Shown piece by piece: positions 1-22,385 of a stretch of DNA of 64,000 nt (its first letter is position 1; each line of letters starts with the position of its first letter). The notes beneath the pieces were generated by a model, which had not been told where the DNA came from, did no database searches, and saw only the letters and a list, made by a program, of their open reading frames with translations. The translations under genes were made by a program, and so were the position numbers. The stretch lies in assembly GCF_000758665.1 (NCBI RefSeq), contig NZ_CP009285.1, forward strand, positions 5,828,001-5,892,000, given 5' to 3'. Origin of the DNA: Paenibacillus borealis (GTDB taxonomy: Bacteria > Bacillota > Bacilli > Paenibacillales > Paenibacillaceae).

Positions 1-2262
1 CAGCCACTCCGGCGCCGGTTCATTCGGCCGCTCCGCCAGCTCGAACATCGAGTCTACGCGGTGGAATGCCGCTTCAAGATCTGTAGGGAACAGCATCCGC
101 AGACGGTGGTCCTTCGCGGTATTATGGATGTAACTCTTCACTTCCAGGCCCTTGCCGCTGCGTTCCAGCCTTAATACTGTCCGCAGCTTAAGCAGTACTG
201 TGTCCGCTGAGCGCTGTGCCTGCCGCTCCGGATAATAGACCAGCGCACGCTGCTCTTCTTCCAGCACGGCATCGGCGGAAGCAGGAATCTCCCATTCATG
301 GGTGATCTCTACGGACGCCCGGTACGGCGCATCTTCGATGATGCGGATATCAGCCGTCAGCCCCCGGGTAGTCAGCGGAACTTCACCCGCAGGCTGTCTG
401 TACATATATTCGTTGCCGATGTCCCCGGTATTCTCATAGACACCGAGATCACGGTATACTTTGCCGCTTGGCTTATGCTCCAGCGTGAAGGAACCGTCTG
501 TCATAATCTCCACCCGCAGCGATTCGTTCTCCAGTCTCCGTCCGCCGTGGACAAGCGATGCCGCGGCTCCGGAGACTGCCGGAAGTTCTGCCCCGTTCGT
601 TGTTGCGGTTGCGGCTCCGGCAACCGACAGCTCCGCCCCGTTCGTTGCCGCGCTACCCATTGCTGCAGCGGCCCCTGCCAATTCATGGCCGGATCGCCCG
701 GCAGCAGCTTCCGCCAGCGGGCGGACCCAGGCATAAGCGCGCAGCCCTAGCGCTGGCACATCCGCCGCTTCGAAGGTCAGCTGCACCTTGCGGCAGCTGT
801 ACGGCTGCCGGAACCGGTCATCCGGCAGGTCGTAGCCGAACGACAGACCCAGGTCCTGAATCGTACAAGGCACTTCGTTGCCTTGTTCATCCACCAGGAC
901 ACGCCCGCTCAGGTCAACCGCCTTCATCCGGCGGGCGGTCTCTTCCAGCGTGAAGCCTTCGCGCAGATACAGGCGGGCTGCGTCCAGCTCCACGCTGACT
1001 GTGCCCGTGCGGCTCCAGCCGCTTGTATTCGTCACAACGAGCGGAATGGCAGCTTCACCATACGCGGCGAAGCCTGATGTGTCCACTGCCGAAGTGATCG
1101 CCTGCATGCTGTCCGCCACGATGCCTTCGGCGGTGTGACGGCTCTTGTCGAACCGGGTTATCATCTCCCGGTGCACCTCGTCCACACTGCAGCCGCAGAT
1201 GGAATCATGCGGATGGTTCTGCAGTAGCGTCTTCCACGCATAGGTGAACAGGTGATGCGGATACTCCCCGCCGTGCAGCCTGGCGATAACGGCCAGCGGC
1301 TCGGCGACCTTCTCCAGCAGCGCCTGGCCCCGCTGATTCAGCTGCTTCAAGTACACCCGGGCGGAAGCCGTATTGACCAGCGTGCCCCAGCCGTCGGTGC
1401 GCTGGCTTCGCAGCTCGCCCTTCACGGTGGAGAGACTGCGGCCGGCGAGCGAATCCTGCACAGCCTGGATATAGCCGGCAAAGTTCGAATGAACGAACGA
1501 AATCTCCGGGTACAGCTGCTCCGCGGTACGGATCGCTTCCGGCAGATCGGTCTGCAGCGGCTGATGATCGCAGCCGTTCATGAACAGCAGCTGATCCGTA
1601 GCCGCATACTGCCTCGCATCTGCCAGCTTGCGCTCCCAGAAGCTCCCCGCCTCCTCCGCACCTGCCGGAATCTCATTACCGTTCGAATACCAGTTGGCGA
1701 ACAGGATGCCCAGCACCTTGGAGCCGTCCGGACCTTCCCAGACCAGCTCTGAGAACGAGGATTCATAGCCGTCGCTGGAGACCGTATTGTTGAAGCCCGT
1801 CGGCTTCACCCCGCGCCCGAAGAAGGCATTGGTGATTCCCGCCTGTGCCATGAGCTGCGGAATTTGTCCGGTCAGGCCGAAGGTGTCGGGGAAATAACCG
1901 ATCTTCGATACCTCACCGTATACCTCCGCGTCCTGATGCCCGATCTGCAGATTGCGCACGTTGGCTTCCGGACTGGTCAGGAACGCATCCTGCAGGATAT
2001 ACCACGGCCCGATATAGATCCGCCCTTCGCGGATATGGCGCTCCAGACGTTCCCGGTTCTCCGGGCGGACCTGAAGGTAATCTTCTATAATAATCGTCTG
2101 CCCGTCGAAGAAAAAGCTCCGAAATCCCGGATTCTGCTCCAGCGTGTCCAGCAGGCTGTCGACCAGCCGGATGAGCCGGAGATGATGGCGCTCATAAGGG
2201 AGATACCATTCCCGGTCCCAGTGCGTATGGGAGATGATATGCGCCGTTTGTGGTTTGTTCAT
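1..2262 (-). CDS. GH38 alpha-mannosidase, 3' end cut by the window
   Basis: This is a cytoplasmic-type alpha-mannosidase expected to remove alpha-linked mannose from imported glycans. The first 754 codons are visible; the C-terminal end lies outside the window. The protein opens MNKPQTAHIISHTHWDREWY, the HxHWDREW metal-binding start of GH38. It carries PDTFG near residue 128, where the family nucleophile Asp lies. No signal peptide is seen. An Ala/Gly-rich stretch of about 55 residues with the hexamer TNGAEL twice (bases about 541-720) sits just before the C-terminal beta-domain. The ATG lies 5 bp after the GH130 stop, so the two are co-transcribed. GH38 is nearly certain; linkage preference cannot be read from the sequence. 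Confidence 0.93.
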   Translation of the reverse strand, partial: MNKPQTAHIISHTHWDREWYLPYERHHLRLIRLVDSLLDTLEQNPGFRSFFFDGQTIIIEDYLQVRPENRERLERHIREGRIYIGPWYILQDAFLTSPEANVRNLQIGHQDAEVYGEVSKIGYFPDTFGLTGQIPQLMAQAGITNAFFGRGVKPTGFNNTVSSDGYESSFSELVWEGPDGSKVLGILFANWYSNGNEIPAGAEEAGSFWERKLADARQYAATDQLLFMNGCDHQPLQTDLPEAIRTAEQLYPEISFVHSNFAGYIQAVQDSLAGRSLSTVKGELRSQRTDGWGTLVNTASARVYLKQLNQRGQALLEKVAEPLAVIARLHGGEYPHHLFTYAWKTLLQNHPHDSICGCSVDEVHREMITRFDKSRHTAEGIVADSMQAITSAVDTSGFAAYGEAAIPLVVTNTSGWSRTGTVSVELDAARLYLREGFTLEETARRMKAVDLSGRVLVDEQGNEVPCTIQDLGLSFGYDLPDDRFRQPYSCRKVQLTFEAADVPALGLRAYAWVRPLAEAAAGRSGHELAGAAAAMGSAATNGAELSVAGAATATTNGAELPAVSGAAASLVHGGRRLENESLRVEIMTDGSFTLEHKPSGKVYRDLGVYENTGDIGNEYMYRQPAGEVPLTTRGLTADIRIIEDAPYRASVEITHEWEIPASADAVLEEEQRALVYYPERQAQRSADTVLLKLRTVLRLERSGKGLEVKSYIHNTAKDHRLRMLFPTDLEAAFHRVDSMFELAERPNEPAPEWL

Positions 2263-2267
2263 GGCTG

Positions 2268-3266
2268 TTACACCTCAGTCTCCAGAGGATACTCCTCCAT
2301 ATAGTTAAGCAATTCGTCGACGGTAGTGAAGGCCAGACCCGTAACTGTATCCGCACAACCGTAGTAGATGGCAATCCGTCCTGTAGCCGCATCTGTCAAT
2401 GCCGCGCAGGGGAAGGTCACGTTCGGCACATCGCCCACACATTCGTACAAGGTTTCCGGGCCGAGAATATAGTTGCGCGAGCGTGCTTTCACCTTCCAGG
2501 GCTGATCCAGATCCAGCAGCGCACAGCCCATGCGGTAGACAAACCCGTTGCAGGTGTTGATTACGCCATGGTAGATCAGCAGCCAGCCCTTATCGGTCTC
2601 AATTGGAATCGGACCCGGGCCTATTTTTTTGGACTGCCAGGCAGAAGCGTCACCGTTCACCGTACCCATCACATAGCGGTGTTTACCCCAGAAGGTAAGG
2701 TCAGGACTTTCGCTGTAAAAGATATCGCCAAACGGGGTATGTCCGGTATCGCTTGGACGGCTGAGCATGGCGTAATGGCCGCCGATCTTGCGCGGGAACA
2801 GCACACCGTTACGGTTATACGGCAGGAAGGCATTTTCTATCTGATGAAAGGTTTGAAAATCAAAGGTATACGCGAGCCCAATCGTCGGCCCGTGATAGCC
2901 GTTGCACCAGGAAATATAGTAACGGTCATCGATCTTGCATACCCGGGGATCGTAGCGGTATTCGCGCTTGATCACATCCTCATCGCCCTGGAAGACGATA
3001 GGTTCATGATTAATCTTCCAGTTCACTCCGTCCTCGCTGAACCCGGCAAAAATATCCATGCTGACCGATTTGGAATCGCAGCGGAACACACCGGCGAAGC
3101 CGTCCCCGAAGGGAATGACCGCCGAATTAAATACACTGTTCGAATTCGGAATGGCATCCCGGTGGATGATCGGATTGGCGGAGTATCTCCAGACAGGCGC
3201 ATTGCTGCTCACCGGCTTCTCTTGCCAAGGGATATTTGACAATGTTTCTCCAATAATTGTACTCAT
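2268..3266 (-). CDS. GH130 beta-1,4-mannoside phosphorylase
   Basis: This 332-residue protein matches GH130 inverting phosphorylases, which split beta-1,4-mannosides with phosphate to give mannose-1-phosphate. Family signs are [19 protein letters not shown] near residue 30, then FRCDSKS, and [17 protein letters not shown] near residue 110. There is no signal peptide, so it is intracellular. The start is the ATG at 3266 behind AAGGAGAGC; a longer reading would run into the upstream gene. Lying among GH38, GH125 and GH85 genes, its most likely substrate is Man-beta-1,4-GlcNAc, the N-glycan core disaccharide, but beta-mannan oligosaccharides are also split by this family. Family call is strong; the substrate is inferred. 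Confidence 0.92.
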
Positions 3267-3306
3267 GCTCAGCTCTCCTTTATCTATGAAAAAGTATGAT
3301 ATGAAT

Positions 3307-4626
3307 TTAGAGAATGCCTTCCTGCAGCGCCCGCCAGACCAGCTGGGAGAACAGGCTGTTCGACCAGGCGAACCACTTGCGGGTGAAAACCGACGGATCG
3401 TCAGCCAGGAAGCCTTCATGCATATAGCCGGTATCGGCATCCGTTGCTTCAAGCATGTCAATTACCGCCAGCTTCTCTTCCTTACTGTCCGCCGTAATCC
3501 CCTGCATAGACAGCGCCATATGCCAGATATAACCCGGAGGGGTATGCGGACTGCCGATACCTTTGGCGGATTGGCCTTCGTAATAGAACGGATTCTCGCT
3601 GCTCAGCGCAAAACGTCTTGTATTCTGATAAACCGGATCGTCATTCTTCAAATACCCAAGGTAAGGAATGGACATCAGGCCCGGTGTTCCCGCGTCATCC
3701 ATCAGGCAGTAATTACCGTAGCCGTCCGTCTCGTAGGCATAGATTGGCCCGAACTCAGGGTGGCGGTAGATGCCGTACAGCTTGATGCCGTGATCCACCT
3801 CCTGCTCCAGCGCCTTCAGCTCGGCCAGGAAATCCAGATCGCGGAACACCCACTCGGCGAAGTCCTGCATCTGGCGCAGAGCCACCACGGCGAACATATT
3901 CCCCGGAATGTTGTAGTGGAAATCGCAGGCATCGTCACTGGAGCGGAAGCCGGACCAGATCATCCCTGTATAGTTGACCGGCATACCGAGTCCGCCGTTA
4001 CGGATAGAGTCCTCCATAATCCCGTTGTTCCGGGTGAAGCGGTACGGGGATTGTTCCGCATGATGCTGCTCCCGCTTGAAGAGATCGGTAATGGTGCGCA
4101 GCATTTTTTTGAAATCAGCCGTGAAGAAGTCCGTCTGCTTCGTCTCCTCCCAATAGGCATGGGCCAGCCGGATCACGAAGCACAGCGAGTCAATCTCGAA
4201 CTTGCGCTCCCACACCCAGGGCGACATCTCCGTCACATCCCCGGCATTCCAGTGCCAGTCGTTAGCTGTTTCGTTGAACGCGTTGGCGTAAGGATCGGTC
4301 AGCACATACTCTGTATGACGCTTGATCAGCCCGCCGATAATACGCTGCAGGTCCAGGTCTTTGGCGGCAAAAGGCACATAATGAATCACCTGCTCGACTG
4401 AATCGCGCAGCCAGCAGGCCGGAATATCACCCGTAATGACAAACGTGGTTCCGTCGTCCAGCAGCTTGGTGGTGGTCTCCAGCGTGTTCGGGAAACAGTT
4501 CCGGAACAGGCGCTGCAGCTTGGGCCGGTGGGCCAGCTTCTCGTCGGCTTCGGCAAGCACAGCCTGAATGGAGGACGGCAGCGGCAGCTCCGGCATGTGA
4601 ATCTGGGGAAGTCTGAATTGTTCCAA
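3307..4626 (-). CDS. GH125 exo-alpha-1,6-mannosidase
   Basis: This 439-residue protein matches GH125, metal-independent inverting exo-alpha-1,6-mannosidases known from N-glycan breakdown in Streptococcus and Clostridium. Recognisable stretches are [19 protein letters not shown] (about 62-80), the central [21 protein letters not shown] and [15 protein letters not shown], and [12 protein letters not shown] near the C-terminus. Length is normal. No signal peptide, so it should work in the cytoplasm on imported mannosides. The start is TTG at 4626, placed behind AAGGAG. It is followed by GH130 after 40 bp and preceded by GH38 after 19 bp. GH125 beside GH38 and GH85 is a strong pointer to high-mannose N-glycans. 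Confidence 0.94.
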
Positions 4627-4645: not shown

Positions 4646-7600
4646 TTAATCTATAGAATGAATAATTTTAATAGTCTTGATCTCAAACGGGAGGAACGTA
4701 AGCGTCAGCTCCCCAGCCTCATCCGGCAGCAGCTCCGTCTCTTCTTCCAGTGCATTGGACAGGTATATCGCCGAATGCGGCAGCGGCCAGCCGAGCTTGA
4801 CGGTCTCGCGTCCGCCGGCGGATTCATACAGCCGCAGAATGCTGCCGGTTCCGTCTTCCGCCAATTTGACCGTATCCAGGATAACCTGCTTCCCGTCATA
4901 AGGGAGGAAGGAGCCGGAAGGCGGCAGCTGTCCTGCACTTGAAGCACAAGCGACCGCATAGGAAGTATGATTCAGCTCAGCGGCTTTGCGGAGGGTATGC
5001 GCCCCGCGCCAGTCTCCGGTATGCGGATACAGGGAATACGTGAATTCATGTGTGCCCAGATCCGCCGAATGATCCGGCCAGCGCGGCGCGCGCAGCAGCG
5101 ACAGCCGGATTGTGCTGCCCTGCGTGTCGTAGCCGTACTTGCAGTCATTCAGCAGGCTGACGCCATAGTCATGCTCTGACACATCCGCATAGCGGTGGCC
5201 GCAGACTTCATATTGCGCCTGCTCCCAGCTGGTATTGCGGTGGGTTGACCGCTCCAGCGCGCCGAACGGAATCTCATAGGTGGCCTTGCTGGTCACTACA
5301 TCTACCGGGAAGCCGACCTTCAGCAGCTTATGGGCTTCATTCCATTGCACCTTCGTCTTAAAGTCGATTCGCCGGTCACAGTGATACAGGATCAGCTCCT
5401 GCTCAATTTCGGTCTGGCCGATGCTCCAGCGGAAATACAGTACATCGCAGACAGGGCCTGAGGACAGCAGCTTCTTCTCCAGCAGAACGGCTTCTCCGGC
5501 GGGCTGCTCCTCATACCGGCTGTCCAGATCCCATGCGTCCCAGAGCACAGGACGGTCATGGAAGAAATGCAGGCGGTTCGCGCGCTCACCGGGCTTGACG
5601 ATCTCACGCCCGGCTTCCTTGTCATACAGGCTGATGATCTCACCCTGTTCATTGAACCGGAGCCGGTAATATCCGGTTTCCCATTCCTGGCCGAACGAAG
5701 CTGCAACCGAAGCTTCATTCGATGCTTCAACCGGTGCCGGCTCATCTCTGCTATCGCTGCCAACCTCGCCGTTACCGTCAACTCTGCCATCTCCGCGCAA
5801 CGCTGGATGTTCCTCATCTCTCAGCCACACGGTTGCATACCCGAACGCCGGAACCTCCGGAACCCGGATGCGGAGAACGGCTGACTCTCCATCTGCAACC
5901 GGCTCCGCGGCCAGCCGCATTCCGTTCCGGTCATATACGGCGGCAGCAGTGTTATCTGCTCCGTCTCCGGCCGCCTGGAGCTCAACCACCATATCCCGGG
6001 TCCAGCCCAGGCTGTTCAGAATGACAAAAGGCTTGCCCTCTCCCCGGGTGTCGATCCCGGATACAGCCGCTTTCATGACACTCTTCAGACTGTCCTCTCC
6101 CAGATTGAAGATATCCCGGTACTCTTTGTCCGAAGTCTGATAGACCTCGGGAATCGAGGAACCCGGAATAATGTCGTGGAACTGATTCAGCAGGATCAGC
6201 TTCCAGCCTTTATGCAGGGCATGGCCTGTCTTTTCGCGCAGGTCAGGCTGCATACGGTCTCCGGCCAGTGTCTGCCATACTTCTGCTTCCCGGTACAGAA
6301 TCTCCGCCTTGCGGTTATTGCGTTTATTCTTGGCATGAGTCGTATAGGTACCCCGGTGCAGCTCCAGATACAGATCGCCCTGCCAGACCGGCAGCTCCGG
6401 CTTAGCCTGCTCAATGCCGGCGAAGAAATCCGCCGCCGTACTATAGGTTGAAGCTGGCTGGCCTACCATCAGCTCCGAACGGTTGATATATTCGAGCATC
6501 TCCCGCGTAACTCCGCCGCCCCCGTCACCGTGTCCGTACAGCAGCATCTGCTCGCTGTGGACCGTTTTTTCCCGGTAGGACTGCCAGTGCTCATGGATAT
6601 CCTTCGGCAGCGTATTCTCATTTACGCCGTGGTTCATGTAGGACAAGAGTGCAGTTCCGTCTATGCCTACCCAGTAGAACAAATCGTAAGGGAACAGATT
6701 CGTATCATTCCAGCCGAGCTTGGTTGTCATGAAATAGCGGACCTTGCCGTGCTTCAGGATCTGCGGCAGGGAGGCGCAATAACCGAAGGTATCCGGCAGC
6801 CATTCAATCTCGGAACGCAGTCCGAATTCCTCCTGATAGAACCGCTGCCCGTACAGCATTTGCCGCATCAGGGACTCACCGCTGGGAATATTCAGGTCAG
6901 GCTCGACCCACATGCCGCCGACCAGCTCCCAGCGTCCTTCACGGATCCGCGCCTTCACCTTCTCATACAGCTCAGGGTCGTTATCCTTCAGATAAGCGAA
7001 CAGCTGCGGCTGGCTCTGGGCATAGCGGTACTCCGGATATTCCTCCATCAGCGCATGAACCGTCGAGAATGTACGGCTGGCCTTGCGCACAGTTTCCCGC
7101 GCCGGCCACAGCCAGGCGATATCGATATGCGACTGCCCGACCATATGAATGAAGCCTTCACTGTTGCCGCCGATTTCCCGGACCTTTCCGGTCAGCTCCT
7201 GCTCGATGCCTTCGATTCCGCCGCTGTCCCCTGCTGCTTCTGGCCCCATAAGGACAAAAGCATCCATCGCCTGATACAGCGCCTCCAGGATACGTGCCCG
7301 CCTGAAGTCCTGCTCCGGCAGCAGCAGCGCCGAATCACGGATCACGATCACGGTGTACATCAGCGACTGCACAGGCAGGTTAACCCTAACGAGTGCAGCG
7401 GTTATGGACCGGACCGGCGGCTGGATCACCGCCTGCTTATTCAGCGGGTCATCGGGCTCGGGAACCGGATCATACAGCTCAATCTCAATCTCCGGCTTTC
7501 GTCCGTCGGCCTCCGGATCAAGGGAAGCGAAGGTATGATTGCGGTCCAGTCCCTGGCGGGAAGCTCCGCCCACACGCAGCAGCCCTTCTCCGCCCGAACG

Positions 7601-7861
7601 GAAGATCAGTCCCGTGTCTGCTCTAGGCCATTCCTCCGGAATATCGAGCGTTGTACGGAACATATAAGTAGTTCCCTGCACACTCGGGAACAATCCGAAG
7701 GCTTCACTGCCCGGATACGGCTGCAGCTCATCATAATGGCCCGGCTGCCGGTAGGCTGTGGAGAACACCTGCCAGTCCTCAACCACGCGGTATTCCAGCC
7801 ATTGCTGCTGCGATAATTCACGGATAAACCTGTCTATTCGCTCCATGTCTATACGTTTCAT
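4646..7861 (-). CDS. GH38 alpha-mannosidase, long type
   Basis: A second, unrelated-length GH38 enzyme of 1071 residues, close to the usual size of bacterial/vacuolar class alpha-mannosidases. About 240 N-terminal residues form a beta-rich domain. The catalytic domain then starts at HMVGQSHIDIAWLWPARET (about 241-259), with the HxDxAWxW metal site, and WLPDTFG near residue 338 carries the nucleophile Asp. NQFHDIIPGSSI near 560 is the conserved helical-domain stretch. A low-complexity Gly/Asp/Ala/Ser insert (about 690-730) precedes the C-terminal sandwich. There is no signal peptide. Its ATG overlaps the GH3 stop by 4 bp (ATGA), with GGAGGAG upstream, so translation is coupled. Two GH38 genes in one operon suggests division of labour over different linkages. 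Confidence 0.94.
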   Translation of the reverse strand: MKRIDMERIDRFIRELSQQQWLEYRVVEDWQVFSTAYRQPGHYDELQPYPGSEAFGLFPSVQGTTYMFRTTLDIPEEWPRADTGLIFRSGGEGLLRVGGASRQGLDRNHTFASLDPEADGRKPEIEIELYDPVPEPDDPLNKQAVIQPPVRSITAALVRVNLPVQSLMYTVIVIRDSALLLPEQDFRRARILEALYQAMDAFVLMGPEAAGDSGGIEGIEQELTGKVREIGGNSEGFIHMVGQSHIDIAWLWPARETVRKASRTFSTVHALMEEYPEYRYAQSQPQLFAYLKDNDPELYEKVKARIREGRWELVGGMWVEPDLNIPSGESLMRQMLYGQRFYQEEFGLRSEIEWLPDTFGYCASLPQILKHGKVRYFMTTKLGWNDTNLFPYDLFYWVGIDGTALLSYMNHGVNENTLPKDIHEHWQSYREKTVHSEQMLLYGHGDGGGGVTREMLEYINRSELMVGQPASTYSTAADFFAGIEQAKPELPVWQGDLYLELHRGTYTTHAKNKRNNRKAEILYREAEVWQTLAGDRMQPDLREKTGHALHKGWKLILLNQFHDIIPGSSIPEVYQTSDKEYRDIFNLGEDSLKSVMKAAVSGIDTRGEGKPFVILNSLGWTRDMVVELQAAGDGADNTAAAVYDRNGMRLAAEPVADGESAVLRIRVPEVPAFGYATVWLRDEEHPALRGDGRVDGNGEVGSDSRDEPAPVEASNEASVAASFGQEWETGYYRLRFNEQGEIISLYDKEAGREIVKPGERANRLHFFHDRPVLWDAWDLDSRYEEQPAGEAVLLEKKLLSSGPVCDVLYFRWSIGQTEIEQELILYHCDRRIDFKTKVQWNEAHKLLKVGFPVDVVTSKATYEIPFGALERSTHRNTSWEQAQYEVCGHRYADVSEHDYGVSLLNDCKYGYDTQGSTIRLSLLRAPRWPDHSADLGTHEFTYSLYPHTGDWRGAHTLRKAAELNHTSYAVACASSAGQLPPSGSFLPYDGKQVILDTVKLAEDGTGSILRLYESAGGRETVKLGWPLPHSAIYLSNALEEETELLPDEAGELTLTFLPFEIKTIKIIHSID

Positions 7862-12154: not shown

Positions 12155-13678
12155 CTACTTATTGTTCGCTGCTTTCCAGGCGTCGAGCTGTGTTTGTGCT
12201 TCGGCAATAATTTTATCCAGACCGGCGGCTTTGAATTTCTCATTGGCCTTGGCCAGATACTCTTCCGGATCTACCGAGCCTGTCATCAGCGGTGCCCAGA
12301 ATTCTTCCTTCACGTTCTGAACGGCAGCAATTTCATTCGTGATGTTGGACGTATCGAAGTTAAAGCCAAGCAGCGGCGCGTTGATGCCGGAATCATTGAA
12401 CTTCTTGAATTCTTCCCATTTGTTCTCAGGGTCGCCTTCATTCAGGTAGTTGATCATAATGTTGCCCAGTGAGAAGGTCGGCATATCGTAGTTCTTCGCA
12501 TCCGGGAGGTTCTTGATCATGTTGTCGCTGATTTTCTCGTAATGGACGCCTTCGATACCGGAATCAATCATGTTGCGCAATACAGGATCTGTATTCAGCA
12601 GGTTCAGGAATTCCATTGCTTTCTCAGGGTGCTCGGAGTTGGCGGAGATGGCCTGCATGGACCCCATAACGGACCAGTTGTAGATGTAAGGCTGGCTGGC
12701 CGGCGTGGACACAACCGGATAACCGTAGCTTGCACTCCACAGATTGTCAGCCATCGGCTGGGTGGCAGCCCGGTCGGTGAACCATTTACCCGCTTTGTAC
12801 AAGTCATCCACCGACGATGTTGTAGCTACTTCAGGAGAGATGTAGCCTGCCTGATAGAACTTGCGGACGGTTTTCAGCGCTTCCTTGATTTCCGGGGTTT
12901 CCAGGATGTTCACTACTTTATAGTCCTTGGTGTCCATGTATACCGCCATAGGCATCTTCTCGATGATATAGTCAAACGGCATAATCGGCATGAAGTCCTT
13001 GACCATGGCGTACGGGGTAATCTCCGGCTCGTTGTCTTTGATTGTTTTGAGCAGCGGCTCGAGATCTGCCATCGTTTTCACGCTGGTGAGATCAAGCTTG
13101 TATTTGTCCAGCAGCTCTTTGTTGAAGCGGAATACCTCTTGCGCAGGCAGCTCTTTATTGGCCGGAATCGCATAGTTATGGCCGTCCACCTTGGAGCCTT
13201 CCAGGAAGGCCGGATCAATGGCATCCACGATGCCTTTGCCCTGATTCTTCAGCAGATCATCCAGCTGCAGGAACGCCCCTTTGCGGGCATTCTGCACATA
13301 ATCAAACGCCCAGGAACAGGTGAACAGAATATCCATCGGTTCGCCCGAGGCAACCATGACCTGCATTTTCTGCGTGTAATCCCCGAAGTCAATCATCTTC
13401 ACATCGAGTGTGGCATTGATTTTGTCCAGCGTGTATTTATTAATTTCATCAACAACTTTGTTCAGGTCCTTCTGCGGTGCCCCGATGGTGTACCAGATCA
13501 GTTCTACGGGATCTTCCGAAGGCTTGGTTTCAGATGTGGCCGCTGTGTTCGTCCCCGATGCAGTTTCTCCGCCCGTATTCGTATTCTTGGCGTTGTTCCC
13601 CCCGCATGCGCTAAGCGCCAGTGATAATGTTAAAAGCGTTGTCAACAACAAGGAGAAGTGTTTCTTTTTCTTACTCAT
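12155..13678 (-). CDS. Sugar-binding lipoprotein of the glycan importer
   Basis: This 507-residue extracellular solute-binding protein is anchored as a lipoprotein. The leader MSKKKKHFSLLLTTLLTLSL ends in the lipobox LSAC (Cys near residue 25), followed by a Gly/Asn/Thr-rich tether. The body matches family-1 binding proteins with the DUF3502-type C-terminus common beside LplB/LplC permeases. ATG at 13678 follows AAGGGGGT. It is the first gene after the yesN terminator, so it needs its own promoter in 13679-13860. From its neighbours the ligand should be a high-mannose oligosaccharide ending in GlcNAc; that is inference. Confidence 0.92.
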   Translation of the reverse strand: MSKKKKHFSLLLTTLLTLSLALSACGGNNAKNTNTGGETASGTNTAATSETKPSEDPVELIWYTIGAPQKDLNKVVDEINKYTLDKINATLDVKMIDFGDYTQKMQVMVASGEPMDILFTCSWAFDYVQNARKGAFLQLDDLLKNQGKGIVDAIDPAFLEGSKVDGHNYAIPANKELPAQEVFRFNKELLDKYKLDLTSVKTMADLEPLLKTIKDNEPEITPYAMVKDFMPIMPFDYIIEKMPMAVYMDTKDYKVVNILETPEIKEALKTVRKFYQAGYISPEVATTSSVDDLYKAGKWFTDRAATQPMADNLWSASYGYPVVSTPASQPYIYNWSVMGSMQAISANSEHPEKAMEFLNLLNTDPVLRNMIDSGIEGVHYEKISDNMIKNLPDAKNYDMPTFSLGNIMINYLNEGDPENKWEEFKKFNDSGINAPLLGFNFDTSNITNEIAAVQNVKEEFWAPLMTGSVDPEEYLAKANEKFKAAGLDKIIAEAQTQLDAWKAANNK

Positions 13679-13860: not shown

Positions 13861-13887
13861 AAAAAGGAGCTGCCTTAGAGCAGCCCC
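13861..13887 (-). terminator. Terminator overlapping the end of yesN
   Basis: An 8-bp stem (gcagcccc at 13880-13887 with ggagctgc at 13866-13873, one G-T pair) is followed on the minus strand by TTTTT. The stem includes the last codons and the stop of the response regulator gene. It separates the regulator transcript from the transporter/enzyme transcript. Confidence 0.75.
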
Positions 13888-15392
13888 TTGAATTCTGTCG
13901 GAGAGATGCCAACGTATTTCTTAAATTGTTTGTAGAAATAGCCCATCTCCCAGTAGCCGACACTTCGCGCGATCTCATGTACCTTGTGGTTTGTCGAGCG
14001 GAGCTGCTCCTTCGCCTTCTCAATCCGGTAACGGTTCATATATTCCGCAAACGATTCACCGGTCATTTTGTGAAACAGCTGTCCGAGATACACCGGGTGA
14101 ATATTGAACATGAAGCCCAGCTTCTTCAGCGACAGATCCTCACTGTAGGATTTCTCAATATAATTCAGCACCTGGTTCACAACCGGGCTCTTCAGCTCAC
14201 GGTCCAGCAGTTCGATGATGCTTCCGGCTGTCTGCATGACAGCAGCGGACAGGCCCGGCAGTGAATTCGCCCTGTGTATCGCGGTCAGCCCCTGCGCAAT
14301 AAGCTCCCGCTCCATTTCACTGCGGATCTCTTTAATCAGCATGCGGAAATACAGAATCCATTCCAGGGAAATCTCCCGGAGCAGCTCGGGGGTCAGCCCC
14401 TCCATACATTTCGCAGAGAAATACAATTCGAGCCGCCCGGTCAGCGCCGGAAGATTCTTGGCCATAATTAATTTCGAATACTCGCTCCAGTCCTCCGGTA
14501 AGGCCGCTTCAATATCTTCCTTGCGCTCCTTCAGCTGTTCATAATAGATCAGGCTGCGCTCCGGGTAGATTTCCAGGAATTCCTGAGCCTGCTTCGCCTG
14601 CTCATAGCTGGCCGGAGCAGCCTGCACCCCGTCCATGACGGCTCCAACCGCAACGCGCAGCCGCTGGCCGGGAGCGCCTAAGCCGGTGATCTCCTGCAGA
14701 ATGGAGGCCATCTCTTCCGCCCCTCTGCTCTCGTCCGCATAATTATGTATGAGCACCAGATCACTATCCGAGTCCCAGAACATGAAGAACGAAGCATGGG
14801 CACCGACTAGAGCGGCGGCATTCTTCCGGAAGGCTTCCGTGGCCGGCTCCGCCTGGACCAGCGCAACTTGAATATAACGGCTGCTGATTGACAAGCCCAG
14901 CAGATTCAGCCGTTCGGACAGCTCTTCAGGATCAATCTGCCTCCGCATCCAGCGCAGCAGCACATTATCCTTCAGCACGGAGTTCGTATACTCATACCAC
15001 TCCGTATCGAGTCTGGAGACATTCAGCTTCTCGGCAATCGTCTCCAGCGTACTCTGGAATTCCTCCAGGTTGATCGGCTTGAGCAGATAATTCTCAATGC
15101 CGAGCGACAGGCCTTCTTTGACATAGATGAATTCATCATAGCCGCTCAGCACAACCACCTTCAGCTCCGGAAGGAATTCCTGGGCAGCACGGATCAGCTC
15201 AAGGCCGGTCATCACGGGCATGGATATATCGGTAATGAGAATATCGGCAGGCACCTCGCGCAGCTGCTCCAGCGCTTCCTGCCCGTTCTCGGCTTGTCCC
15301 ACAATCGTGAGGCCCAGCCGCTCCCAGTCCAATATATCCTGCAGGCCGCTAAGAATGAACGGCTCATCATCGACAATAAACACCTTATACAT
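13875..15392 (-). CDS. YesN-type response regulator (REC + AraC HTH)
   Basis: This 505-residue cytoplasmic regulator has an N-terminal receiver domain starting MYKVFIVDDEPFILSG, with the phospho-acceptor Asp in ADILITDISMPVMTG (about residue 55). A long middle region is followed by two AraC-type helix-turn-helix motifs at the end (EDLSLKKLGFMFNIHPVYLG and VHEIARSVGYWEMGYFYKQF). The start is the ATG at 15392 behind AAGGAGGA; upstream codons in the same frame belong to the sensor gene. It overlaps yesM by 8 bp. It probably activates the GH85 and importer promoters, since both genes flank it on the same strand. Confidence 0.93.
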   Translation of the reverse strand: MYKVFIVDDEPFILSGLQDILDWERLGLTIVGQAENGQEALEQLREVPADILITDISMPVMTGLELIRAAQEFLPELKVVVLSGYDEFIYVKEGLSLGIENYLLKPINLEEFQSTLETIAEKLNVSRLDTEWYEYTNSVLKDNVLLRWMRRQIDPEELSERLNLLGLSISSRYIQVALVQAEPATEAFRKNAAALVGAHASFFMFWDSDSDLVLIHNYADESRGAEEMASILQEITGLGAPGQRLRVAVGAVMDGVQAAPASYEQAKQAQEFLEIYPERSLIYYEQLKERKEDIEAALPEDWSEYSKLIMAKNLPALTGRLELYFSAKCMEGLTPELLREISLEWILYFRMLIKEIRSEMERELIAQGLTAIHRANSLPGLSAAVMQTAGSIIELLDRELKSPVVNQVLNYIEKSYSEDLSLKKLGFMFNIHPVYLGQLFHKMTGESFAEYMNRYRIEKAKEQLRSTNHKVHEIARSVGYWEMGYFYKQFKKYVGISPTEFKGLL

Positions 15393-17211
15393 GCTCTGTC
15401 TCCTCCTTAACGGGATATGGAAAAGTAATGGTGACCTCGGTGCCTGCTCCTTGTTCACTAGCCAGCTCAACCCCGTACGGCTTGCCGTACATCAGCCTTA
15501 GCCGTTCATGGATGCTCCGCAGCCCGAACGACTCTGATCCGGACAATTCCCGGTTATCCTCCAGCCCCAGCCGGAGCCGGTCCAGCTTCTCCCCGGCAAT
15601 GCCCAGGCCGTTGTCCGTGACTACAGCCCGTATATTGTTGTTATCATCGGGATGGATCCTGATGCTGATCACGTTACCGGTTTGTCCGGTGCGCATGCCA
15701 TGCAGAATGTAGTTCTCGATTACCGGCTGGAGGGACATTTTGAGTACAGGAAGACCTTCCAGCTCTTTACTGCAGTCGATGGTATAAGCGAACCGGTCCT
15801 TGTAACGGATCCGGAACAGCTCCAGGTACATACGGCAGGCTTCCAGCTCATCCTTGAACGTATATTTCGCCTTCGGGCGGACATACGATTTGAAGAGCAC
15901 AGACAGGCTGTAGATCATTTCGCCGACATCCTTCGCTCCGCTGGAAATCGCCCGCATCCGTATAACCTCCAGCGTATTATAGAGAAAATGCGGATTCACC
16001 CTAGCCTCCAGGGTAGCGATTTCCGTATGCTTCTGCTTGATTTCAGCTTTGTACACCTGATCAATATACTGGTTCAGTTCATCCAGCATGCTGTTGAAGC
16101 TCTTGGCAATCTGGCCTAATTCATCCTCACGGTTGTCTACGATCCGGGTGTTCAAATCCCCGTTTTTGACCTTGCGGGTGAAGCGGATGATGCGGTGTGT
16201 CCGTTTGGCAAAATTCGAAATAAACATCGCCGGCAGCAGCACTGCGAACAGGATGCATACGAGGGCAATCGTAACAATGGTATTGCGCGCACTGCTGTAG
16301 GTTTCGGCGAGCTCCTTCTTAGAGATCAGGCTGACCACCGTGTAACCCGCCTGGCTCTGGGTCAGGCGGGTCGCCACCATCCCGTCCATGGAGATTTCTT
16401 CCCCGGAGTTCGCCCCTTGCAGCTGCAGATATTTCCGGCCGTACCCTTGACCCGAAGTGTCAAAGATGACTTCATTCTGGGCAGAGAGCACAAGAATTTC
16501 GCCTTTGAAATCCTGCTTATAATTATTCATCGCCTGCCAGATGGATTCGGAATCAAAGTAGACCAGCATCTGGCCGATATTGAGCAGCGACGACTTGTTG
16601 GTAATGGGGATTTTCACCGAGAACATAGGGGTTCTCTGCATGCCGATGCTCTTCAGCACCCAAATATTCGGCACGGACACCAGGCTCTCCTCATCCAGAA
16701 CCATCGAATCAGGGACGAAGGAATGGGCCGCATTGGTCGATACCCGGTCAAACTGTCTGCGGTTGTCATAATAGTACATCACCTGCTGATTGGCGCTGTA
16801 CAGCATCAGGCTGCGGATATCCGGATCATCGTCGATCTTGTTCTGGAAATACTGCACAGCGTTAGACGTAGACTGATCCCCGAGCAGGTAGCGGTCCAGC
16901 CGGTGCTCGACATATTCGCCGAAGGGATGCTCCAGCAGAAATGTGGTGTTGCTCGCCAGACTCCCGTCCCGGTAGACATCACGCATCATATCCTGGACGG
17001 ACTGGTATTTGTTCTCCACATAGTTGCTGATGCTCTCCATCGTCTTGCGCTGGATATCCATCTGCCGCTGCACCGCAGAATCCGAGATCAGCATCAGCAC
17101 CAGATACGAGAAGGCAATGATCGTTGCAATGAAGATACAGGATACGATAAGGGTAAACCGCATAAACATATTATCTTTAAAATACTTGCGGTACAGGGAA
17201 TTACTCCGCAT
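15385..17211 (-). CDS. YesM-type sensor histidine kinase
   Basis: This 608-residue membrane kinase is the partner of the YesN regulator it overlaps. It has a membrane segment near residues 20-42, a large extracellular sensor region, a second membrane segment near 290-312, HAMP, then the His_kinase (YesM/LytS) box EARVNPHFLYNTLEVIRM with the phospho-His, and an ATPase domain with VIENYILHGM and DNGLGIAG. The start is the ATG at 17211 with AAGGAGGTGG upstream. It probably senses the sugar, possibly through the binding protein. It lies between the GH85 gene and the importer genes. Confidence 0.93.
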   Translation of the reverse strand: MRSNSLYRKYFKDNMFMRFTLIVSCIFIATIIAFSYLVLMLISDSAVQRQMDIQRKTMESISNYVENKYQSVQDMMRDVYRDGSLASNTTFLLEHPFGEYVEHRLDRYLLGDQSTSNAVQYFQNKIDDDPDIRSLMLYSANQQVMYYYDNRRQFDRVSTNAAHSFVPDSMVLDEESLVSVPNIWVLKSIGMQRTPMFSVKIPITNKSSLLNIGQMLVYFDSESIWQAMNNYKQDFKGEILVLSAQNEVIFDTSGQGYGRKYLQLQGANSGEEISMDGMVATRLTQSQAGYTVVSLISKKELAETYSSARNTIVTIALVCILFAVLLPAMFISNFAKRTHRIIRFTRKVKNGDLNTRIVDNREDELGQIAKSFNSMLDELNQYIDQVYKAEIKQKHTEIATLEARVNPHFLYNTLEVIRMRAISSGAKDVGEMIYSLSVLFKSYVRPKAKYTFKDELEACRMYLELFRIRYKDRFAYTIDCSKELEGLPVLKMSLQPVIENYILHGMRTGQTGNVISIRIHPDDNNNIRAVVTDNGLGIAGEKLDRLRLGLEDNRELSGSESFGLRSIHERLRLMYGKPYGVELASEQGAGTEVTITFPYPVKEETEHV

Positions 17212-17263
17212 AGTCCACCTCCTTAACATTTGCTGGCTTACGCCTGTCATTATGATACACAAG

Positions 17264-17348: not shown

Positions 17349-20300
17349 TTAATTCAAATAATTCAGCAGCAGCTGCGCAGCTTCTGCACGGGTGGCAGGG
17401 GCTTTGGGCGCAAAGGTTCCGTCAGCCCGCCCTCTCACGAGGCCAAGCGCTGCCGCTTCAGCCACCTGATCCGCTGCCCAGTCCGAGATATCCGCAGCAT
17501 CCTTAATAGTCAGGCTGCCCGCTGCGGCCGGGATTGAACCCTGCTGCAGCCGGTAAGCCCGCATCAGAATGACGGTCATCTCTTCGCGGCTGATCTCCGC
17601 AGACGGCTGGAAGGATTCCGGCGTACGGCCGGTAATCAGCCCCGCCTGGACCATGCCGGAGAGCCCACTCTGATACCAGGCGCCTGCCGGAACATCGGCG
17701 AAGGAAGTAGTGCCGCTGCCGCTTAGCTGCAGCATGCCCGCCATCAGCTGCACGAATTCAGCCCGGGTAATATTGCGGCCCGGCTGATAAGCCTGCTCTG
17801 ATATCCCCTTGATCAGATGCTTCGCAGACAGCTCACGCAAGGCTTCAAAGGCCCAGTGCGTGACCGGAACATCGCTGAACTGCTTGGAATACTCCAGCAG
17901 CGCATACGTGCCGCCGCCGTCCAGAAGTCCCGTGAGCCCGCCGTCTTCTGCCGCCCCGCCCAGATAGGCGAGTGTGCCGTCACTTCCCGCACGGTACAGG
18001 CCAAGCAGCTTCGGCGTAAGTCCGTCAGCCTGCCATACCAGACTCACTGGAGTTGTATAAGCTTCAAGATGGTGCGCCGTTCCATCCGCCCCGGTCAGAT
18101 ACAGCTCATAATCGATCAGCTTGCCTCTCAGCGTTACGCCGGCCTCCGTCTTCAGCTTCACTTCATCCAGCGCCTTCAATTCCGCCTTCAGCAGGATCTT
18201 TGCGCCGCCGCTTTGATCAGCAGGCAGGACTTCCGCCAGCTGCTTCAGCAGCGCCGGCGCCAGCACCAGCCCGATTCCGTCTCCCTGCACACGCAGGGAA
18301 TGGGTTCCCAGCAGCGCCCCGGCATCCACCGGAAGCTCAATGACAGCCGCTTGCCCTATCTGCACTGTAACTACCCCGTTCACCGCAGAGCTGCTAAGCT
18401 GGGCGGCGGTAATGACTGCAGCCGAAGGACCCGGCGTTGCGGCTGGTTGTGGTGTTGCCGCAGGCTTCGCCGTTACTGACGGCGGACTTGTTGTTGTCAC
18501 CGGAGGATTCGTTGGCGTCACGGCTTGGCGGTTGACGCTCAGAGCAATCGGCTCCGTGCGGACCGCATCCGTATAAGTACGGTTACCAATGATGCGGGTA
18601 TTGGTCACCTCAACCTGGTACGCCCCCGCATCAGCAATTTGAGTCTGTCCGATGGTCAGGCTGCTTCCAAGCGCACCCTCCAGTACAAGGTCATTCTTCA
18701 GCCAGCGGTAGCTCAGCTCCCCGTAAGTTGAAGCGGCAACTACGCTGAAGGTTACCGGATCACCCTCTGGTACCGGATTAACCGTGGCCGTAAATGCTTG
18801 AACCGACGGGAGTTCATGCGCCGGATAGACCTTGAGCTTAAGCTCCGTTCCGGTGATACGTTCTGCATTCAGCTCCGCTTTGCCGGTCAGCACCACACGG
18901 TACTGCATCCCGTCATCTTCCACTCCCGGAGTGAAGCGGTACACCGCTCCGGTAACATCCGGAACCGGCAGCCAATCCCCGCCGTCCGCGCGCTTCATCT
19001 CCCAGGCGATGGACTCCACATCTCCTGTCAGATCCACCAGCAGCGTTACAGCTTCCCCTCCGGTTGTCTCCAGCAGAGGCGGCAGATCGGTCACGAATGC
19101 CGGAAGAGTCCATTCTGCTTCAGCCGGAAGCACCTGCAGGAGGTATTCCTGCTCACCGGTCAAGCCGCCTTCGCCTGTCACGACTACCTTGTACCGGTAG
19201 CCGCTCATCGACTCCGACAACTCCGGAAGCGTCAGCACCTCCCCCGTTCCGGCCGGTTCGCCATAGCCCTCTCCCCTGTCCACATACCAAGTGTAGGATA
19301 GACTGCCTGCCCCTTTGCCGGCGGCGCGCAGCACACCAGTCCCGCCCGCCCGCAGCGAGCCTTCACTGACAATCTGCACCTCCGGGGCCTTGAGGGCCCA
19401 TTTCGCCGTCAGCGTTAATTCACCAGGTACCGTCCGGGCAGCAAAATCCCATTTCTCGGCACCGTTGTACCAGCCCTCCAGCTCGTAACCTTCCTTCGTT
19501 ACAGCCGGAGCATTCAAGTACTCCCCGTACACAGCCTGAACTACTGTTCCGGCCGGACTTCCCCCGTTAGCATCAAAGGTGATATCATAGCGCCCTCTAA
19601 GGTATACAGGCCGGGACTTGTTCCCGCTGTAATCCTCCATCACCGCTGTTACCACTTTAGCTGTTGAGGTAAAGCTCAGACTGGCTTTTGTCGTGCGGCC
19701 GCGGATAATCATAGGCTTGTTCGCAGCAGCATCCGACAAATAGGTTACCGGAAAGGATCTGTCCTTGCCGTCTTCATTAATATACATATACCGCCAGTCC
19801 CTGGCGTTCGGCATCGGCAGGTTCAGCGTATTGCCGTTCCACGACCAATTCTCCGCATAGGGCTCGGACACCTTATCGGTGAAGGTCCCGTTATAGGTTA
19901 CCTTATCCGTATTGCCAGCCTGGACCGTAACGGTATACTCGTCTCCGTTCACCGGCATGTTCGGGAACAGGGCTGAAGTTGTACCCTCGGGCAAGGTCAG
20001 TTCCTGCAAGACCGGCTCAGGCGTGGTAATCCAGTTGGTCGACTTCACTGTAACCTTAACCGCACCCTGGGCGGAACCGGGATTCGACCATTTGACCAGT
20101 AAATCCCCATCCGCAGCAGACGCTGCTTCAATATTCGAGACCGCCGAATTCAGGTCGAAGGACAAGCTGGCTGCGTCCCCCTCCAGCCCGTCCGCCCCTA
20201 CCGGAACAACCTTGAGGACACCGGCTTTGGACGGCAGCTTTTTGATATAGAACATCTCGTCATATTTGCCGCCCATATAGATATCGTTCACATATATATT

Positions 20301-22385
20301 GTATTGCTTCACTTTGGAATAATCAGGGTCCATCTCCCAATTCACGATCATTTCATCTGTGCCTGACAAAGCCTGCGCAATCGCGAGACCCTCAGGAGCC
20401 GGAGGTTTGACAGCCGAGCCGTCATGGATCCGGAGCTGGCCGATATTCACCTGATAATCCGCAATCGTACTCTGTCCGGGTGTAAATACAAGGCCGAGAG
20501 CAGCGATTTCCCGTCCGGCGTAAGCCCCGAGGCTAACTTCACGGGCCACCCAGCCTGCGGTTTGTTTGCCGCTGTCCGCCAGAGGAACCTTAACCACCTC
20601 AGCCGGGTTGTCCCGGAAGATCAGACCCGCACTCATTACCGAAGCATCGTCAGCCGAAGGCTTGTTATAAACAATGGACAGCTTAGAGTCCGCCTTTACA
20701 GCCAGGTCACTCTTATACAGCCGGAGGAAGTTCTCCTGATCCAGTGCCCCGTTCACCACCAGGGAACTGCCGCCGTTGTAGCCGCCGATCTGCTCATAAT
20801 TCATCCGCGGATTGGCGGACAACTCATATTCCGGGCCATAATCGAAATCTACCTCCAAGCGGTTGCCCGATGTGTCCTGCCACCATTGCCAGGTTACCGG
20901 GACATCCTGGAGACTCATATTCGACCACTCGTCTCCGCTGGATTCCGCTCCGTTCACATAATAGGACAGTCCGTGGCCGGTATTGAAATTCGTGTAGAAG
21001 CTGAAATCCTTCACTACTGACCGTTCCGTGATTACGGAAGCGATCCCCGGCCAATAGCGGTTATCGGCATACACATCGGATACAGTGTTCGCAGCAGATA
21101 CCGCGGTATTATCAGGATTTACATTGGGTCCCGACCACCAGAGCTGCTCCCGCAGGTTCGTCATCCACTGGTACTTGTTATCCGTCCGGTTCGACACCGG
21201 CCAGGCTTTCCCCATATCCTCATCCAGGCCCGCATGGACAAAGTCGGCTCCCAGCGTCGCCATGCTTAGCCGCGGAACACCGCCGGACAGCTTGCTGCTT
21301 AGCGCCGTGCCCTGCACATTCTTGAAGCGGTCCCTCCCAGCTTCCAGTCCGGCGAAGCCGACATCATAGAGGCTGAAATCAGTCCCTTGTGTATTGTTCA
21401 GATTATTCAGATAATTCGTTGCTGCATTGATCTGCGAACTGCCCATCCCATAATCAAAGAAATAAGAATTCGAGACCTGTTCCTTGCTTGTCTTGTCGTA
21501 CAGCATAGAAATATTATTATCGTTAAACGTTCTGGCGAAGGTATTGGAGCCCGTTGCTGTATTCAAGGAATCATACCACTGGACATACAACCCGCCCTTT
21601 TGCAGCGCTTTCATAAATGCAATGTAATCCGGAATATCTGCGGTCACGACGTTCGGATTCTGCTCCTCCTGGTTAAGGAAATAACCATCATAGCCGAAGT
21701 AACGCGCCATTTCAATCATTTTCGCGGCTACGGGGAAGTTCCCGTTCTCATCCTTCACAAGCATTTGTTTATAGGTCTGCTGCCCCCGATCATTATTGGA
21801 GAAGAAAACACCAGCCAGAGACATCACGCCATTCTTGTGCGCGGCATCGGTGTAGGTTGGGTTCGGGATGTTCAGCATGCCGAATTCAAACCATTTCTGC
21901 TGCCAGTCGGACTGGGCCAGATCGTCATAATATTCCGGCGGTGTGTATGCTGTCGCCGTACCATGCCAATAGGAATAATAGTCGATATACTGCCAGAAAT
22001 TGAAGTGATATTGTGCGAACTTGTTGGTATAAGGAGCGTTCTCGATGAATGCATTCCCATAGTCTCCCGCTACGTTAATCATCTGTACATCCGGATTCAG
22101 GTCCGGATTCGCCTGCGTAGCCTTGAAGGGCGCAATCCGCTGCTGCAACGGGACCCGGGAACGCAGAAGCTCCGCATCCTGATCCGTCTCCGGACTCCAG
22201 TCCGCTATCTGATTACTGGTGTAACCATGTACGCTCGGCTGGTTCGCCCCATGCGCACTCTCCTCTTGGAACGGCCAGGTGTCTCCGGCCAGGGCTGTCT
22301 GCGGCAGCAGGGTAACCAGAAGCGCTGCGCTTAACACAGTTGAAGTTAGCTTGTGAAGTTTCGGTGTTCGGGTATGAGATACCAT
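17349..22385 (-). CDS. Surface-anchored GH85 endo-beta-N-acetylglucosaminidase with three SLH domains
   Basis: This 1678-residue secreted enzyme should cut the GlcNAc-GlcNAc core of N-glycans. A signal peptide ends at ALA (residue 33). The GH85 domain (about 60-650) has the catalytic pair in GYDGYFLNQEE, Asn238 and Glu240, the N-x-E pattern of GH85. Fibronectin/Ig-like parts follow. From residue ~931 comes a Listeria-Bacteroides repeat (YDITFDANGG), Ig-like domains, a Pro/Thr linker (~1285-1320), a domain starting VITAAQLSS, and three SLH domains (~1500-1678) with FSDVPVTHWAFEAL, FADVPAGAWY and IKDAADISDW. SLH domains bind cell-wall polymer, so it stays on the surface. The ATG at 22385 follows GGAGAG. 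It is upstream of yesMN and the importer. The last ~750 residues are near-copies of those of 46227-51710. Confidence 0.95.
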   Translation of the reverse strand: MVSHTRTPKLHKLTSTVLSAALLVTLLPQTALAGDTWPFQEESAHGANQPSVHGYTSNQIADWSPETDQDAELLRSRVPLQQRIAPFKATQANPDLNPDVQMINVAGDYGNAFIENAPYTNKFAQYHFNFWQYIDYYSYWHGTATAYTPPEYYDDLAQSDWQQKWFEFGMLNIPNPTYTDAAHKNGVMSLAGVFFSNNDRGQQTYKQMLVKDENGNFPVAAKMIEMARYFGYDGYFLNQEEQNPNVVTADIPDYIAFMKALQKGGLYVQWYDSLNTATGSNTFARTFNDNNISMLYDKTSKEQVSNSYFFDYGMGSSQINAATNYLNNLNNTQGTDFSLYDVGFAGLEAGRDRFKNVQGTALSSKLSGGVPRLSMATLGADFVHAGLDEDMGKAWPVSNRTDNKYQWMTNLREQLWWSGPNVNPDNTAVSAANTVSDVYADNRYWPGIASVITERSVVKDFSFYTNFNTGHGLSYYVNGAESSGDEWSNMSLQDVPVTWQWWQDTSGNRLEVDFDYGPEYELSANPRMNYEQIGGYNGGSSLVVNGALDQENFLRLYKSDLAVKADSKLSIVYNKPSADDASVMSAGLIFRDNPAEVVKVPLADSGKQTAGWVAREVSLGAYAGREIAALGLVFTPGQSTIADYQVNIGQLRIHDGSAVKPPAPEGLAIAQALSGTDEMIVNWEMDPDYSKVKQYNIYVNDIYMGGKYDEMFYIKKLPSKAGVLKVVPVGADGLEGDAASLSFDLNSAVSNIEAASAADGDLLVKWSNPGSAQGAVKVTVKSTNWITTPEPVLQELTLPEGTTSALFPNMPVNGDEYTVTVQAGNTDKVTYNGTFTDKVSEPYAENWSWNGNTLNLPMPNARDWRYMYINEDGKDRSFPVTYLSDAAANKPMIIRGRTTKASLSFTSTAKVVTAVMEDYSGNKSRPVYLRGRYDITFDANGGSPAGTVVQAVYGEYLNAPAVTKEGYELEGWYNGAEKWDFAARTVPGELTLTAKWALKAPEVQIVSEGSLRAGGTGVLRAAGKGAGSLSYTWYVDRGEGYGEPAGTGEVLTLPELSESMSGYRYKVVVTGEGGLTGEQEYLLQVLPAEAEWTLPAFVTDLPPLLETTGGEAVTLLVDLTGDVESIAWEMKRADGGDWLPVPDVTGAVYRFTPGVEDDGMQYRVVLTGKAELNAERITGTELKLKVYPAHELPSVQAFTATVNPVPEGDPVTFSVVAASTYGELSYRWLKNDLVLEGALGSSLTIGQTQIADAGAYQVEVTNTRIIGNRTYTDAVRTEPIALSVNRQAVTPTNPPVTTTSPPSVTAKPAATPQPAATPGPSAAVITAAQLSSSAVNGVVTVQIGQAAVIELPVDAGALLGTHSLRVQGDGIGLVLAPALLKQLAEVLPADQSGGAKILLKAELKALDEVKLKTEAGVTLRGKLIDYELYLTGADGTAHHLEAYTTPVSLVWQADGLTPKLLGLYRAGSDGTLAYLGGAAEDGGLTGLLDGGGTYALLEYSKQFSDVPVTHWAFEALRELSAKHLIKGISEQAYQPGRNITRAEFVQLMAGMLQLSGSGTTSFADVPAGAWYQSGLSGMVQAGLITGRTPESFQPSAEISREEMTVILMRAYRLQQGSIPAAAGSLTIKDAADISDWAADQVAEAAALGLVRGRADGTFAPKAPATRAEAAQLLLNYLN

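Follow-up and report, generated by a model that had tools for sequence, protein, structure and literature searches.

A conserved Paenibacillus operon predicted to use N-glycans, probably including xylosylated plant-type glycans

The stretch of the Paenibacillus borealis genome analysed here (the window: 64,000 nucleotides, bases 5,828,001-5,892,000 of an 8.16 Mb single-contig genome) carries on its minus strand, between positions 1 and 22,385, a row of genes whose sequences suggest an operon for the utilization of N-glycans, probably including xylosylated (plant-type) glycans besides high-mannose glycans. From position 22,385 downward, the row consists of a family 85 glycoside hydrolase (GH85), a histidine kinase, a response regulator, a binding protein, two permeases, a GH3, a long GH38, a GH125, a GH130 and part of a short GH38. 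The original prediction had placed these same components on one strand, and Pfam matches bear out each family that it named, all of them on the minus strand within 1-22385; its span of 1..22385 does hold these genes, but the operon is longer, because the second GH38 crosses the start of the window and a GH20 lies beyond.

The GH85 endo-beta-N-acetylglucosaminidase (17349..22385; 1678 amino acids) matches PF03644 with 162.8 bits and is predicted to be secreted, with a signal peptide recognized by eye, three surface-layer homology (SLH) stretches (PF00395) and Ig-like and List_Bact repeats. It is followed by a YesM-like sensor histidine kinase (15385..17262; PF06580, HAMP, HATPase_c) and a YesN-like response regulator with an AraC DNA-binding domain (13875..15470; PF00072, PF12833), the open reading frames (ORFs) of which overlap by 86 bases; a solute-binding lipoprotein homologous to NgtS (DUF3502; 12155..13678; PF12010, PF01547; lipobox recognized by eye); and two ATP-binding cassette (ABC) permeases, P2 (11138..12064) and P1 (10192..11109), both PF00528. 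Next come the GH3 (7858..10170; PF00933/PF01915/PF14310), a predicted beta-1,2-xylosidase for the N-glycan core with no evident signal peptide; its partner, the long, Ams1-like GH38 (4646..7861; PF01074), with which it overlaps by 4 bases; and a GH125 (3307..4626; PF06824, 512 bits) of the alpha-1,6-mannosidase family. The GH130, a predicted UhgbMP-like mannoside phosphorylase (2268..3266; PF04041), probably starts at 3266, after AAGGAGAG, the listed ORF beginning 65 codons too early. The short GH38, of the streptococcal/enterococcal type and 962 amino acids in full, has its 5' part at 1..2262 and the remainder outside the window (L064:3374-6262); 71 bases past it, on the same strand, is the GH20 gene, the product of which has no visible signal peptide. 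Genes from GH85 to GH125 are spaced between an 86-base overlap and 196 bases. It is this spacing that speaks for a single transcript, because the scans for promoters (12 matches against a mean of 11.0 in shuffled sequences; 16 against 12.7 in a second scan) and terminators (11 against 14.3; 13 against 11.5) gave counts within the shuffle range. An Rfam scan of the window gave no match at the gathering threshold. Among the operon proteins scanned there is no transporter ATPase and no GH29, PNGase, GH92, ROK, GH76 or GH99, the remaining genome being unsearched for GH92.

Most parts of the operon are homologous to a characterized enzyme or binding protein. The closest solved relative of the whole GH85 protein is EndoD (2w91), and its catalytic part matches 3fha, 3fhq and 2vtf; its NQE motif aligns with NQE of 3fha, which we take to be EndoA, and with NQQ of 2vtf, presumably an EndoA mutant at Glu, so that by alignment the N-x-E catalytic pair is retained. 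The lipoprotein matches the NgtS structures 5swa, 5swb, 5suo and 5mlt over about 450 residues with up to 269 bits. In NgtS, according to PMC5215778, Trp386 stacks on Man-GlcNAc (GlcNAc, N-acetylglucosamine; Man, mannose) and Trp81 bonds the terminal alpha-1,6-mannose. When both residues are placed on the alignment by the one offset that fits them, the window lipoprotein has Phe at each position; in the lipoproteins of relatives, the first position is occupied by Trp, Phe or Tyr and the second by Phe or Tyr in all 86 cases read (91 loci tried). The short GH38 matches 3lvt with 852 bits and 2wyh with 819 bits, and the best solved matches of the long GH38 are Ams1 and related alpha-mannosidases. 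The operon GH20 (L002:15773-17302, outside the window) has lacto-N-biosidases as its best solved matches, with 166 bits; plant antennae of the lacto-N-biose type are described in a review (PMC10154615).

Anchoring of the GH85 by SLH repeats is not general, because 17 of the 26 copies that the genus yields at no less than 71% identity (that of P. borealis included) have frames shorter than 1,000 codons, the other nine having at least 1,600. The GH85 lies within 20 kb of the locus GH3 for 20 of these copies and elsewhere for six, and some GH85 match occurs in 197 of 394 genomes of the family. Genomes G244 and G195 (loci L073 and L078) possess the operon without any GH85 match; therefore, the glycan imported there would be free or released by another enzyme. 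Elsewhere in the window, a 1,845-residue GH43 protein (46173-51710, plus strand) combines CBM35, CBM6 and ricin-type domains with SLH repeats, and its C-terminus shares with that of the GH85 (17349-22385, minus strand) a block of about 750 residues that is 72% identical, as if a single surface anchor had been reused on different enzymes.

The arrangement is conserved far beyond chance, because 73 of 79 GH3-centred neighbourhoods, from 77 other genomes and picked from GH3 matches in the 394 family genomes, keep permease, GH3 and GH38 as consecutive genes and have GH125 in the same stretch (GH3 being present by construction). A long GH38 is present in 78 of the 79 and GH125 in 73, a slightly different set from the 73 with the row order, and the operon position of the GH3 is maintained across genera of the family. 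Since these loci had been chosen by their GH3, the association of GH3 with the long GH38 was counted again from GH125, using 81 copies (at least 76% identity) in 100 genomes of the genus and a radius of 9 kb. Both genes accompany 51 of the 81 copies and neither accompanies 27, at least one of which (G158:C77) reflects a contig break; one copy has only the GH38, at a contig edge, and two have only the GH3, one of them (G224) with its GH38 just outside 9 kb, all classes being kept as counted and genome relatedness being ignored. A partial copy (G218, 281 residues) and one at a contig edge with GH3 and GH38 adjoining (G182:C31, 351 residues) were left out, and L236, the GH3 of which is a weak fragment, was counted as lacking GH3. 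Thus, GH3 and long GH38 form a two-gene cassette that is, with few exceptions, jointly present or jointly absent beside GH125. Where the pair is missing, the remaining genes may still be arranged as in the operon (examples are L224, L225, L229, L232 and L233). Counted from the other side, 72 of 83 long-GH38 copies in the genus have the GH3 nearby, and none of 15 control neighbourhoods of two other Paenibacillus GH3 groups holds the locus GH125, GH38s, GH130 or protein X (see below) at 40% identity and 150 bits.

A function for the cassette is suggested by a Bacteroides massiliensis enzyme, B035DRAFT_00995, which removes the core beta-1,2-xylose of plant N-glycan, requires prior removal of alpha-1,3-mannose and leaves xylobiose uncut (PMC9522356). 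The GH3 of P. massiliensis B84634 (L144) was identified as this enzyme from its neighbours and identities rather than by locus tag: it adjoins an AraC regulator, a sulfatase and a GH2, as in PMC9522356, and its identities to the homologues from P. vulgatus (76.4%) and P. coprophilus (65.4%) compare with values of 75% and 66% in that paper. Over 760 residues, the window GH3 has 49.1% identity to this enzyme and shares with it the motif RADPWT and an insertion, SSARDF...TGA...GEGxDR, just ahead of the presumed acid/base Glu; the insertion features SSARDF and GEGxDR are our own choice and correspond to no published family definition. Of 72 aligned rows, the 56 that represent locus, paralogue and Bacteroidota GH3s all contain RADPW and SSARDF, compared with one and none, respectively, of the 16 other GH3s, and the motif DMxCGEGxDR (first letter D or E) occurs in all 32 locus and paralogue rows and in 10 of 24 Bacteroidota rows, the presumed B035DRAFT_00995 among them. 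The best solved match of the window GH3 is 7zb3, a beta-xylosidase. An assignment of the GH3 to beta-N-acetylhexosaminidases (PRK05337) was rejected because the score, 52.7 bits, is below the cut-off of 207. That the two genes are, as a rule, both present or both missing fits a role of the long GH38 in removing an alpha-1,3-mannose that blocks the xylosidase.

The final step would fall to the GH130, which among solved structures matches UHGB_MP (4udg) with 522 bits, 1vkd with 416 and the remaining 13 sequences, 5ayd apart, with at most 124; UhgbMP presumably acts on Man-beta-1,4-GlcNAc. A paper (PMC10619541) likewise points toward that activity. In relatives, the GH130 is often replaced by an undescribed protein of about 1,050 residues, here termed protein X: 47 of the 79 GH3-centred loci have only X, 25 only GH130, one both (after exclusion of a fragment match) and six neither. 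Protein X, at present labelled mostly as beta-galactosidase in sources, has a predicted GH164/GH42-like fold, and it seems on balance a good candidate for a beta-mannosidase of Man-beta-1,4-GlcNAc. Its assignment as a plain GH164 was considered and not established.

Gene content and order, the families, the catalytic pair of the GH85 and the joint occurrence of GH3 and long GH38 provide the footing for a pathway in which we infer all activities, the order of steps, the substrate, the location of the enzymes and the regulation. Outside the cell, the SLH-anchored GH85 would cut the chitobiose core of protein N-glycans; the freed glycan would presumably be sensed by the YesM/YesN pair, and Man(n)(Xyl)GlcNAc (Xyl, xylose) would be brought in by the NgtS-like lipoprotein and the two permeases. 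Inside, antennae that bear GlcNAc, if any, may be trimmed by the GH20; the short GH38 and the GH125 would take off alpha-1,3- and alpha-1,6-mannose; the long GH38 would take off the alpha-1,3-mannose beside the core xylose, after which the GH3 could take off the beta-1,2-xylose; and the GH130 would convert the remaining Man-beta-1,4-GlcNAc to Man-1-P and GlcNAc by phosphorolysis. The route of release, import, alpha-mannose trimming and phosphorolysis had been proposed in the original prediction and is well supported, because solved relatives and the conserved gene order both point to it; use of core N-glycans by the operon is thus highly probable. A pathway for Man9 and other high-mannose glycans, as then envisaged, holds for this core but left no place for the GH3, a steady member of the operon that points to beta-1,2-xylose. 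The extension to xylosylated glycans appears likely, with appreciable doubt.

Several observations weigh against this interpretation. Another Paenibacillus GH3 group matches the window GH3 at 48-50% identity, about as closely as the Bacteroides enzyme does, though it reaches only 43-45% with that enzyme, and it carries a modified form of the insertion, SSARQF...NGA...GEGVDL; in the GH3 tree the window clade is sister either to the Bacteroidota clade or to this other group, the tree that unites the window GH3 with B035DRAFT_00995 having a p-AU (approximately unbiased test) of 0.691 and two alternative groupings likewise not being rejected; and the NCBIfam xylosidase models score far under their cut-offs on the window GH3. 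Pairing is not absolute, a long GH38 lying within 5 kb of 72 of the 96 listed GH3 copies of the genus; 21 of the 24 unpaired copies are paralogues at 61-66% identity, and the other three are of the locus type (G189) or partial (G182:C34, G229:C21). Paralogous copies, in favour of the interpretation, mostly adjoin GH125, X, GH29, GH38 or GH2 (GH125, X and GH29 in L245; X and GH29 in L265; X and GH125 in L246, L266 and L268; GH130, GH125, a GH38-type gene and GH2 in L247 and L269; GH38 and GH125 in L244 and L248), but L267 has none of these, nor GH130, beside it, and the GH3-GH38-GH125 locus L248 adjoins a GH67 alpha-glucuronidase, a xylan-type gene that therefore counts against a plant N-glycan substrate. 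The operon itself is bordered, immediately before the GH85 in the direction of reading (23148-25666, minus strand), by two GH43 genes, of which one encodes a C-terminal domain of the beta-xylosidase type. The lack of GH29 and PNGase families among the operon proteins scanned also counts on this side. Only 8 of the 79 loci have a GH20 match, some stretches ending too early. With 5ayd, a beta-1,4-mannooligosaccharide phosphorylase, the GH130 reaches 475 bits, not far from its 522 with UHGB_MP, and because of this closeness it is by itself no proof of a Man-GlcNAc substrate. Neighbourhoods in Bacteroidota speak for the interpretation, though with reservations: the best 80 of 519 loci with this GH3 type (found by the motifs ADPWT[GQ][VK]T or [GA]EEC[SP]HGH; some on short contigs) include a GH29 match in 44, some weak, and GH92 in 22, counts that stand without a control set for families common throughout Bacteroidota; five have a GH130 that is 60-62% identical to that of the window, two have GH125, and in 24 a search for eight N-glycan-type families found no member.

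These points can be set against three other explanations. The operon might serve high-mannose (and hybrid) N-glycans only, with the GH3 as an accessory beta-glycosidase and the long GH38 as a broader alpha-mannosidase. High-mannose glycans do account for the remaining parts, and the GH3 relatives at about 49% identity include a group without assigned function; moreover, the core pathway is independent of the GH3-GH38 pair, because in 20 GH125-centred loci from which the pair is missing, the binding protein and permeases persist in 13 and the short GH38, together with GH130 or X, in 16. What this explanation leaves unaccounted for is the constant position of the GH3 between permease and GH38, its presence or absence jointly with the long GH38 beside GH125, and the action of its Bacteroidota relative on plant N-glycans; we regard this explanation as unlikely, though a serious contender. 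If the target were instead a xylose-bearing fungal mannan, such as glucuronoxylomannan or xylomannan, with the GH85 acting on the stem of fungal N-glycan, the GH67 beside L248 would find a place, and GH38 enzymes are also used in the breakdown of alpha-mannan (review PMC10154615); yet the GH76, GH99 and GH92 families did not appear among the operon proteins scanned, the binding protein resembles NgtS, and the GH130 is nearest to UhgbMP, which makes a fungal mannan very improbable. The last explanation, that an N-glycan operon has a xylan-type beta-xylosidase, the GH3, as a passenger, can draw on 7zb3, the adjoining GH43 genes and the GH67 of one paralogue, but it is at odds with a place in the operon that is kept across genera and with 15 other GH3 genes of the genus that have no operon enzymes alongside; of the three we consider it the least probable.

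If utilization of xylosylated as well as high-mannose N-glycans is correct, the operon represents a Gram-positive route for the sugars of plant glycoproteins that recurs in the family, and a source of enzymes for trimming plant N-glycans, among them a GH38 expected to tolerate core xylose. It is conceivable, at somewhat less than an even chance, that the operon is a widespread module in which a cassette of GH3 and xylose-tolerant GH38 switches between plant-type and plain N-glycans and the last step is performed interchangeably by GH130 or by a new family, X, which would hydrolyse Man-beta-1,4-GlcNAc as a fourth kind of enzyme beside GH2, GH5_18 and GH130. The exchange of GH130 for X points to a candidate new beta-mannosidase family.

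Related genes also occur in other settings. In Pedobacter (L204 and L207), GH92, GH125 and this type of GH3 are consecutive genes, with a weak GH20 match after them, a pairing of GH125 with GH3 in a second phylum. Another GH3 group of the genus (L250-L256) is accompanied in seven of seven stretches by a different GH130, 31-41% identical to that of the window, and by YesMN-like genes. The GH125 of L226, L227, L228 and L234 belongs to a different kind of locus, where GH38, GH130 and X are all below the thresholds used; in L228 it is found with two GH29 fucosidases, a CBM9 protein, a transglutaminase-core protein and a GH18. The far end of the window (52175-63999) carries a second cluster of YesMN and ABC-transporter genes, which also encodes a GH65-family enzyme and a DUF4432 protein, and the C-terminal part of a GH32 at the window end.

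A literature search on N-glycan loci of Paenibacillus and on bacterial xylosidases of plant N-glycans, with most subscription journals outside its coverage, found no description of this operon. Its logic resembles that of Streptococcus pneumoniae (EndoD, NgtS-P1-P2, GH38, GH125, GH20, the alpha-1,2-mannosidase GH92, TCS07), as the original prediction had proposed. Both have a GH85 anchored to the wall, two-component control, GH38 with GH125, and a transporter whose binding protein is homologous between the two and is accompanied by two permeases but by no ATPase gene. Two of the three differences then drawn do not stand in full. Wall anchoring is no difference, EndoD being anchored as well (PMC5215778), and control by YesMN is a weakened one, because in pneumococcus, too, a two-component system, TCS07, drives the genes for N-glycan use (PMC7075642), although the words YesMN, YesN and AraC are absent from the main text of that paper. 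The third, phosphorolysis by GH130, is a true difference, because for Man1GlcNAc, the fate of which is given as unknown in pneumococcus, PMC5215778 names no enzyme and knows of no candidate beta-1,4-mannosidase. Unlike its pneumococcal counterpart, the system of P. borealis is one contiguous operon, is anchored by SLH repeats rather than LPXTG, and has no GH92, GH29 or ROK among its scanned proteins; it adds GH3, a second GH38 and a GH130 that would give Man-GlcNAc a fate, and thus indicates what a Gram-positive bacterium may do with this disaccharide.

Breakdown of plant N-glycans by gut Bacteroides (Crouch et al. 2022, PMC9522356) likewise involves a related GH3 that acts on core beta-1,2-xylose after removal of alpha-1,3-mannose, but that GH3 is periplasmic, a PNGase releases the glycan and the alpha-1,3-mannosidase is a GH92. 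In P. borealis, by contrast, the GH3 has no evident signal peptide, release would be by GH85, and a GH38 is the would-be partner. In the high-mannose operon of Bifidobacterium longum a GH5_18 hydrolase stands where the window has a GH130 phosphorylase, and we know of no GH3 in that operon. Import of the whole glycan and intracellular processing by GH38s and GH125 are features of B. longum (review PMC10154615) that P. borealis would share. UhgbMP-type mannoside phosphorylases provide the nearest comparison for the last enzyme, UhgbMP being by sequence the closest solved relative of the window GH130. What is new relative to the pneumococcal system is the GH3-GH38 pair linked to plant-type xylose and the exchange of GH130 for protein X.

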